A stretch of 57,573 bases of DNA from Sphingomonadaceae bacterium (GTDB lineage: Bacteria > Pseudomonadota > Alphaproteobacteria > Sphingomonadales > Sphingomonadaceae): contig CANJRZ010000003.1 in the NCBI GenBank assembly GCA_947476735.1, positions 1 to 57,573 on the forward strand, written 5' to 3'. This document shows, one piece after another, positions 6,990 to 55,341 of this stretch. Both the position numbers and the translations under genes were made by a program. The notes under the pieces were generated by a model. That model worked only from the letters and a program-made list of their open reading frames with translations, ran no database searches and had not been told where the DNA came from. How positions within the stretch are numbered: position 1 is the stretch's first letter; each line of letters starts with the position of its first letter.

Positions 6990-7436
6990 CTAGAAAGCGA
7001 TGCCCACCGATACGCGCATGTCGTCGGCCGAGACTTCGCGATTCGGCTGGCCGGCGGGGATGGCGCGATACTTTCCGTAACTCGCGCCGACCGAGACCGG
7101 ACCGGTAATGGCCGGGGCTCTGACGCCCAGCCTGTTCTGGTCGACGGCGGTCTCACGCGAGCTATACCGATCCCGGGCCAGTTCGTTGGGGCCCAGCGAC
7201 ATACTCGCGCGCGATGGCGGCGCGGGCAGCCCGGCGAGCCGCTCGCGTTCCTCTTCCGCCGCCTTTTGCTTCAGGGCATCGGCTCCGACATTCTTCGGCG
7301 GAGCATAGAGGCGGAACTGGTCTCCCCAGTCGAGGACGACCGGCTGCGGGATATGCGGAATGCTTTCGCGCGTCGCAGGCTGTTGAGCCGCCACAGGCGT
7401 GGCCAGGACGAGCAGCAGGGCACCCAGGAACCGCAT
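6990..7436 (-). CDS. hypothetical secreted protein
   Basis: I do not recognise a named family. The 148-residue product opens with MRFLGALLLVLATPVAAQQ, a clear Sec signal peptide with an AxA-type cleavage site. The mature part is polar, with a charged helix-like stretch (ALKQKAAEEERERLAGL), a Ser/Ala-rich middle, and an end SADDMRVSVGIAF that closes in Phe as outer-membrane strands often do. The start at 7436 is chosen because GAGGAGG lies just ahead of it; the track's 277-residue ORF runs back into the argD region and is not credible. It is divergent from argD and stops 49 bp before thrC, so it may be cotranscribed with thrC. Confidence 0.72.
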   Translation of the reverse strand: MRFLGALLLVLATPVAAQQPATRESIPHIPQPVVLDWGDQFRLYAPPKNVGADALKQKAAEEERERLAGLPAPPSRASMSLGPNELARDRYSSRETAVDQNRLGVRAPAITGPVSVGASYGKYRAIPAGQPNREVSADDMRVSVGIAF

Positions 7437-7510: not shown

Positions 7511-7540
7511 TTGACGAGACTCGTACGACTTCACTATATG
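7511..7540 (+). promoter_or_regulatory. sigma70-type promoter of argD operon
   Basis: TTGACG (7511-7516) and TATATG (7535-7540) are separated by 18 bp, close to the consensus spacing. The expected transcription start is near 7547. The nearest downstream gene is argD. The predicted RNA would begin almost directly in a terminator-shaped hairpin at 7553-7576. Confidence 0.6.
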
Positions 7541-7552
7541 CGCGCTCCGACA

Positions 7553-7576
7553 GGCGGCCGGGATGGCCGCCTTTTT
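7553..7576 (+). terminator. terminator-shaped hairpin in argD leader
   Basis: GGCGGCC (7553-7559) and GGCCGCC (7565-7571) form a perfect 7-bp stem over a GGGAT-like loop and are followed by five T residues. It has all parts of an intrinsic terminator, but it lies about 10 bases after the predicted argD transcription start and 50 bases before the argD ATG. It could be an attenuator or a protective 5' hairpin. It cannot serve the gene to its left, which runs the other way. Confidence 0.65.
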
Positions 7577-7628
7577 GCGTTTTCGGAGCTCGTTCAACAC
7601 CGATCAGAAGGAAAGAGGAGTTTTTGTC

Positions 7629-8819
7629 ATGACCATCACCCCGCTCATGCCGGTTTATCCGCGGTGTGGCGTGCGTCCGGTCCGAGGCGAAGGCTGCTAC
7701 CTGATCGGCGAACGCGGCGAGCGCTATCTCGACTTTGCGGCGGGCATCGCGGTCAACATGCTGGGGCATGGCCATCCGGTGCTGGTCAAGGCGATCGCCG
7801 ACCAGGCGGCGACGCTGATGCACACCTCCAACCTCTATGGCAGCCCGCTAGGCGAAGAGTTCGCCCAGAAGCTGGTCGATGCGACCTTTGCCGACACGGT
7901 GTTCTTTACCAATTCCGGCGCCGAGGCGATCGAGTGCGCGATCAAGACTGCGCGCCGCTATTTCCACGTCACCGATCGGCCGCATCGCAGCAAGATCATC
8001 AGCTTCACCAACGCCTTTCACGGGCGGACGCTTGGCGGCATCTCGGCAACCAACCAGCCCAAGATGCGCGACGGTTTCGAGCCGCTCCTGCCGGGCTTCG
8101 AGGTGGTGCCGTTCAACGATCTCGAAGCTGCGCGCGCTGCGGTTGATGATAGGACGGCCGGCTTCCTGGTTGAAACGGTGCAGGGCGAAGGCGGCATGAC
8201 GGCGTCCACGCCTGAGTTCCTGCAGGGTCTCCGCCAGATCTGCGACGAACAGGGTCTGCTGCTGATCCTCGACGAGGTCCAGTGCGGCTATTGCCGGACC
8301 GGCAAATTCTTCGCGCATGAGCATTATGGCATCACCCCCGACATCATGGCGGTCGCCAAGGGGATTGGTGCCGGATTCCCGCTGGGTGCCTGCCTTGCTA
8401 CCGAGGAGGCGGCGAAGGGCATGGTGTTCGGCACCCATGGTTCGACCTATGGCGGCAATCCGCTGGCAATGGCGGTTGGCTCGGCCGTCTTTGATGTCGC
8501 GGTCAACGATACATTCCTCGCTCATGTCACCGCGATGGGCGATCGGTTGCGCCAGAGCATCGAGCAGTTGATCCCGAATCATGACAAGCTGTTCGACAGC
8601 GTCCGGGGCCTCGGCCTGATGGTCGGCATCAAGCTCAAGGATGCCGCCGACGCGCGCGAGTTCGTCGGGCACCTGCGTGACAATCACGGCCTGCTGACAG
8701 TGTCGGCGAGTGAGAATGTCGTTCGCCTTCTGCCGCCGCTCGTCATCGAGGAAAGCCACATCGCCGAGTGCATCGAAAAGCTCTCGGCGGGGGCGCGGAC
8801 GTTTGAGCCCGCCTCATGA
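7629..8819 (+). CDS. argD: acetylornithine/aminoadipate-family aminotransferase
   Basis: PLP aminotransferase that makes N-acetylornithine from the semialdehyde in arginine synthesis (some ArgD proteins also serve lysine synthesis). The 396-residue protein has the class-III pattern: [15 protein letters not shown] for phosphate binding, [15 protein letters not shown] with the cofactor Asp, and the PLP lysine in [14 protein letters not shown]. The start at 7629 follows AAAGAGGAG at about 8 bases; the track's longer ORF begins inside the leader hairpin. Its stop overlaps the argF ATG (ATGA). It heads argD-argF-hslO. Confidence 0.95.
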
Positions 8820-9739
8820 CCCGGCATTTCATTGATCTGACAGACGCAGGCAGCGCGAACCTCAGGCTCATGCTTGAAGCCGCCAGGACCCGCAAGGATG
8901 CCCGTAAGGGCTCGCCGAAGGGCACTGTCGATGCCGACGCGCCGCTCGCCGGCCATACTCTGGCGATGATCTTCGAGAAGAATTCGACCCGTACCCGCGT
9001 GTCGTTCGACATGGCGATGCGGCAGCTCGGCGGATCGACGATCGTGATGGATGCGGGCAGCATGCAGCTCGGCCGTGGCGAAACGATTGCGGATACCGCA
9101 CGGGTGCTCAGCCGTTATGTCGATGCGATCATGATCCGGACCGACGATCATCAGAAAATCGTCGACCTCGCCCGCTACGCTGACGTGCCGGTGATCAACG
9201 GGCTGACTGATCATTCGCATCCCTGCCAGATCATGGCGGACATGCTGACCATCATCGAGCACAAGGGCGGACTCGGCGGCGCCTGGGCCTGGCTGGGGGA
9301 TGGCAACAACGTCCTGCATTCGATCGTCGAGGCAGGCGCCTTGCTCGGCTTCCCGGTCCGTATCGGTTGCCCCGAAGGTTATGATCCGGACGAAGGCGTC
9401 ATCGCGGAAGCTCGATCGCGCGGGGGACAGATCGAGCTGTTGCGCGATCCTCGGGCAGTTGTCCGCGGAGCGGATGTCGTCGTCACGGACACCTGGATCT
9501 CAATGGGACAGGCGCATGCCGAGGAAAAGCTCGCGGCGATGATGCCCTTTCAGGTTACAAAGGAACTGATGGCGCAGGCCGCGCCGGGCGCTGTCTTCCT
9601 GCACTGCCTGCCCGCCCATCGTGGCGAGGAGGTCGCCGACGCGGTAATGGATGGACCGCAGTCGCTGATCTGGGACGAGGCGGAGAATCGCCTCCATGCC
9701 CAGAAAGCGGTCCTGCTATGGTGTTTCGGGAAGATCTGA
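8816..9739 (+). CDS. argF: ornithine carbamoyltransferase
   Basis: Transfers a carbamoyl group from carbamoyl phosphate to ornithine, giving citrulline. The 307-residue protein carries the carbamoyl-phosphate site [13 protein letters not shown], the HPCQ motif in [13 protein letters not shown], and the catalytic [11 protein letters not shown] loop near the C-terminus. Length is normal. The ATG overlaps the argD stop by four bases, so the two arginine enzymes are coupled. A paired-palindrome repeat sits just after the stop, before hslO. Confidence 0.96.
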
Positions 9740-55248: not shown

Positions 55249-55269
55249 CGCCGCTCATCGCTTTGGGCT

Positions 55270-55297
55270 TAGACAAGCCGGAAGCACACACTATATG
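55270..55297 (+). promoter_or_regulatory. possible promoter of secY-adk
   Basis: TAGACA (55270-55275) and TATATG (55292-55297) are 16 bp apart. The predicted start falls at or just before a terminator-shaped hairpin, as at argD. It would give secY-adk a transcript of its own. Confidence 0.45.
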
Positions 55298-55299
55298 AG

Positions 55300-55341
55300 G
55301 CGGCGGCGGGACCGATGAGGTTCTTCCGCCGCTTTTATTTT
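55300..55341 (+). terminator. terminator-shaped hairpin in secY leader
   Basis: GCGGCGG (55300-55306, or the overlapping register 55303-55309) pairs with CCGCCGC (55326-55332), followed by TTTTATTTT. It lies between rplO and secY, about 20 bases before the secY ATG. It could limit readthrough from rplO or act as a leader hairpin for the local promoter. Confidence 0.6.

Follow-up and report, generated by a model that had tools for sequence, protein, structure and literature searches.

What does a hairpin with the shape of an intrinsic terminator do when it lies directly behind the promoter of a biosynthetic gene? The question is raised by the argD leader of a Sphingomonadaceae bacterium, contained in a stretch of 57,573 nucleotides (here called the window), in which a sequence-only reading had noticed such an arrangement and offered an attenuator, a source of a tiny RNA or a protective 5' stem as its possible functions. 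If about 90 genera have retained, at a single gene, a leader hairpin with the sequence of a terminator at the start of the mRNA, this would represent an unusually deep and simple form of control within the first 30 nt. In the open-access literature searched, neither a described argD leader element nor argD attenuation in alphaproteobacteria was found.

Architecture of the argD leader

When the forward strand of the window is considered, the argD promoter is formed by a σ70-type -35 element, TTGACG (7511-7516), and, after an 18-nt spacer, the -10 element TATATG (7535-7540), which is of the alphaproteobacterial type that lacks a T at -7. A spacing of 7-10 nt after the -10 element places the predicted start region at 7547-7550. 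The terminator-like hairpin (7552-7572) begins after a gap of 11 nt, and its arms (7552-7559 and 7565-7572), which enclose a loop at 7560-7564, comprise a core of seven GC pairs (7553-7559/7565-7571) plus the pair A7552-T7572. The U-tract TTTTTGCGTTTT spans 7572-7583 and includes a T5 run at 7572-7576; TTTTCGG lies at 7580-7586. The promoter followed by a terminator-shaped hairpin, as originally described, is therefore borne out. Hairpin and T5 run end about 55 nt upstream of the argD start codon, which is preceded by the Shine-Dalgarno (SD) sequence AGGAG (7616-7620). argD itself (7629-8819, forward strand, ATG at 7629) encodes acetylornithine transaminase (NF002325, 589.6 bits; TIGR00707, 467.2 bits), and its end is overlapped by argF (8816-9739, forward strand), encoding ornithine carbamoyltransferase (TIGR00658, 378.5 bits).

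The segment 7552-7576 folds with -16.6 kcal/mol (z -3.4) and reaches a value of d = 33.0 in a d'Aubenton Carafa-type score, for which the energies were taken from ViennaRNA. Although this makes it the top-ranking terminator-like site in the first 20 kb of the window, the 13 sites of this type counted in that segment show no excess over shuffled sequences (13.9), so that the hairpin is unexceptional by its own sequence and it is conservation that lifts the case above chance. The ORF adjoining argD (6990-7436, minus strand, 148 aa, MRFLGALLLVLATPVAAQQ...) has no NCBIfam match. Since this gene, which starts at about 7436, is divergent, the hairpin is not its terminator.

Conservation across the family

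Taking the family as GTDB's broad Sphingomonadaceae, a GC hairpin with a T-rich tail was found upstream of the argD start codon in all 80 argD homologues from named genomes (75 detected automatically, and five missed by the detector and judged by eye), with the consensus GGCG[G/A]C..G[C/T]CGCC. A survey of 90 genera, each represented by one genome, called 86 leaders as a GGCG[G/A]N..[C/T]CGC[C/T] hairpin; one of these calls (G089) is doubtful and was excluded from later counts. As for the remaining genera, G025 keeps the layout with another stem (GGCAGCC..GGCTGCC) and a T7 tract, G042 shows a weak variant rich in AT, and no clear counterpart is seen in the argD leaders of G046 and G079. Thus, the check named beforehand, namely whether stem and T-run are retained in related argD leaders, came out in favour of the element.

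In an alignment of 80 genera, 98% of the cells of the 8-bp stem are paired, and 54 cells carry double changes, compared with 23.5 in shuffles (none of 500 shuffles was as high) and far in excess of slid controls. Most double changes fall at the closing pair (A-U, U-A, G-C) and the remainder at three inner pairs, which amounts to the GC-rich stem with compensatory changes that is expected of an intrinsic terminator. The GGCG/CGCC letters of the stem are almost invariant whereas the flanks vary freely, and the loop, which ranges from 3 to about 18 nt, is as unconserved as the 5' flank. An operator acting at the DNA level was ruled out, because the loop varies to this extent while the arms covary. 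An outer stem, GCUCC..GGAGC, seen in the genus of the window, occurs in several clades and is missing in others, and part of it precedes the predicted transcription start. Taken as a whole, the argD hairpin is a conserved element and not a product of chance.

Position relative to the promoter

A good pair of -35 and -10 elements with 16-18 nt spacing precedes the hairpin in 68 of 85 genera, compared with 6.6% of shuffles, and for 67 of these genera the GC core starts 6-18 nt downstream of the -10 element. The -10 elements of the family (TATATG, TATAGG, TAAACG, TAAAAG) lack a T at -7, as is reported for most alphaproteobacterial σ70 promoters (PMC8407463). Given the spacing, the 5' end of the argD RNA is predicted to coincide with the stem or to lie just ahead of it. 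The distance from stem to start codon is as short as 20-30 nt in several species, which leaves too little room for a second promoter, and transcription of argD must therefore cross the hairpin.

Relationship to the intrinsic terminators of the lineage

The argD leaders can be divided by tail sequence into two groups, of which group II, with 38 genera and the tail ATTTGTCGTTT, is presumably of the Erythrobacter/Novosphingobium type, judging from a few named loci (L054, Altererythrobacter; L062, Novosphingobium) and what is known of the family. Group I leaders, of the Sphingomonas type, score above zero in 46 of 47 cases (median d 27), as full terminators would, and keep their T's where these do not pair with upstream A's, whereas the median in group II is 13.9 and six of its 38 leaders are not above zero. 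The background for these values comes from stretches of a sister genome (G116, 800 kb) and of a group II genome (G094, 400 kb), with genes called by a simple codon-usage finder. Gene-end terminators have a median d of 33 in G116 (n=18) and 38.5 in G094, and hairpins inside genes lie at -13.8. Among 743 predicted genes in the 800 kb of G116, only two leaders carry a hairpin of this kind, and argD is one of the two.

A broad covariance model of the argD leader detects about ten other sites per genome. All 11 non-argD sites examined follow a co-directional gene (rpsD, rpmE, rplL and others), mostly 22-58 nt past the stop codon, and their placement identifies them as ordinary gene-end terminators; a regulon of many genes sharing an argD-type leader was ruled out on this basis. 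These gene-end terminators have a near-fixed sequence in common across genera, GGGCGGYCC..GGGGCCGCCCTTTTTCGTTT (L334, L335, L343, L347, L349 and L357, near position 1501).

The secY site and other alphaproteobacteria

The same layout had been proposed to recur before secY, and the ingredients are indeed present on the forward strand of the window: TTAGAC (55269-55274), the -10 element TATATG (55292-55297), a hairpin (55300-55332) and the tail TTTTATTTT (55333-55341), with TTTTCGG in common with argD. However, the stem starts only 2 nt after the -10 element. TATATG (CTATGG in one case) followed by a GGCGGCGG-type hairpin occurs in 18 of 30 family loci, in all 18 of which the stem begins 0-3 nt past the -10 element; the predicted secY start site therefore falls inside the 5' arm. 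Transcripts of the ribosomal-protein operon would carry the whole hairpin, but those from secY's own promoter only part of it. The T-tract at secY varies and is not conserved (d>0 in 12 of 18). The likeness to argD is thus superficial, and the secY arrangement, though it looks related, is a different one.

The pattern CTATATG-N20-50-TTTTCGG occurs twice in the 4.58-Mb assembly, both times in the window, and never in the reversed control. A search across the family mostly returned chance matches and secY leaders. At argD, TTTTCGG is not conserved, its place being taken in relatives by TTTCTGGAG, TTTCGGAG or GTCGTTT. With TTTTCGG not kept at argD, and with the hairpin of secY extending across the start site, a shared secY/argD motif was ruled out, and the common TTTTCGG is best read as coincidence.

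Beyond the family, a hairpin with d>0 is found in nine of 29 alphaproteobacterial argD upstream regions and in none of 290 shuffles, although one of the nine belongs to the family and some are terminators of the upstream gene. Hairpins with a T-run after a GATACT-like -10 element are seen in the argD leaders L179, L180, L183 and L184, and a class-wide common origin of such hairpins is conceivable. In argD loci of other families (L174, L180, L183, L191, L193), a GATACT/GATAAT-like -10 element is often followed by a CTTTTCC-like start region.

Possible functions of the hairpin

Our preferred reading, to which we give not quite an even chance, is that the hairpin is an intrinsic terminator, leaky and close to the promoter, that gates argD and does so without any conventional antiterminator. 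The argD mRNA would open with the hairpin, located at about +1 to +10, in a sequence matching the ordinary intrinsic terminator of the lineage, and a polymerase leaving the promoter would reach this terminator after about 25-30 nt. Part of the polymerases would stop and release a tiny RNA, while the remaining ones would read through to produce the argD(-argF) mRNA. The element would act as a throttle or attenuator in which a classical antiterminator has no room; if it is regulated, a trans-acting factor or the condition of the early elongation complex would have to be responsible. Leaky termination at +25-30 would account for the terminator sequence, for a U-tract that is retained independently of pairing and for the lack of variation in group I. 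A more ambitious version, in which the early elongation complex (through σ, CarD or another trans factor), some 25-30 nt from the start, sets arginine synthesis throughout the family without antiterminator RNA, appears improbable to us.

Three observations count against a leaky gate: group II keeps the stem while termination strength drops (13.9, as against 38.5 for gene-end terminators in G094); the distance to the -10 element is narrow, which a terminator does not need but a stem at the 5' end does; and the near-invariance of the stem sequence exceeds what structure alone requires. The first two are explained by the main rival, the protective stem already offered by the sequence-only reading, which we consider possible without regarding it as probable. 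Here the hairpin at about +1 would shield the RNA end from RppH and RNase E, the U-rich stretch upstream of the SD sequence would aid binding of the ribosome and S1, and the polymerase would not be stopped appreciably. The core lies near the predicted 5' end in all but one of the good-promoter genera, the stem is retained where the U-tract weakens, and in short-leader species the stem, the U-rich stretch and the SD sequence come in immediate succession, all of which speaks for protection. Nevertheless, the hairpins of group I match real terminators of the lineage, including the four or five T's that abut the stem, protection does not require an adjacent U-tract, and very few other leaders of this kind were found in the 800 kb surveyed. 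The leaky gate and the protective stem may both operate.

The upstream neighbourhood bears on a further explanation, namely that the hairpin insulates argD from transcription arriving from upstream and lies downstream of the argD promoter by chance. The neighbour is co-directional in 66 of the 80 argD loci, and the hairpin of many group II genomes lies about 60 nt past the end of a cold-shock-like gene, as an insulator would lead one to expect. However, the hairpin is kept in the 14 loci where the neighbour is divergent, as it is in the window, and the tract is weakest in group II, the group with cold-shock-like genes upstream. Moreover, the neighbour (FliS-like, ABC-2 permease-like, cold-shock-like and others, identified from translated sequences alone, or a divergent gene) changes between species and clades, yet the promoter and the hairpin remain with argD throughout, and thus the element belongs to argD; insulation is unlikely. 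Group II also shows an inverted repeat, CCCGG-N-TTTGA-CCGGG, around the argD -35 element (G004, G017, G041, L062), shortly downstream of the stop codon of the cold-shock-like gene, which may be an operator or a 3' hairpin. Finally, although the predicted 25-30 nt product with its U tail would suit a functional tiny RNA, this role is very improbable, as neither the loop, with its variable length, nor the 5' flank offers a conserved single-stranded seed. Of the functions originally offered, the attenuator in its classical form and the tiny RNA are thus not favoured, as far as sequence alone can separate these readings. Data able to test the element already exist: transcription start sites have been mapped in Novosphingobium aromaticivorans (PMC7471390, GSE150944), and both start sites and 3' ends in Zymomonas mobilis (PMC7566282).

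Comparison with known systems

The closest relatives of the argD hairpin in sequence are the intrinsic terminators of the sphingomonads themselves, which share with it the stem GGCGGYC..GGCCGCC and the T-rich tail TTTTTCGTTT, and whose range of scores equals that of the group I argD hairpins. In contrast to these gene-end terminators, the argD hairpin is found not past a stop codon but at the predicted 5' end of an mRNA, right after the promoter, and in group II it is weaker.

In the trp and his leader attenuators and in riboswitches, a terminator-like hairpin likewise lies between a promoter and a biosynthetic gene. At argD the sequence nevertheless speaks against a classical terminator/antiterminator attenuator, since the hairpin begins at about the predicted +1, leaving almost no upstream RNA for an antiterminator, and only 20-30 nt lie between stem and start codon in many species. 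Neither an antiterminator nor a leader peptide was found upstream of the hairpin, and with the start site as predicted no leader ORF is possible in the 20-30 nt leaders. An aptamer is also lacking, and no Rfam family matches the window at its gathering score, and a relaxed threshold around the argD leader returned just one sub-threshold match, in antisense.

The leaders of E. coli ompA and T7 gene 10 are 5'-terminal stabilising stem-loops, and they resemble the argD leader in combining a stem near the predicted 5' end with a U-rich stretch and an SD sequence. What sets the argD hairpin apart from them is that its U-tract abuts the stem, and that the stem itself is the terminator consensus of the lineage.
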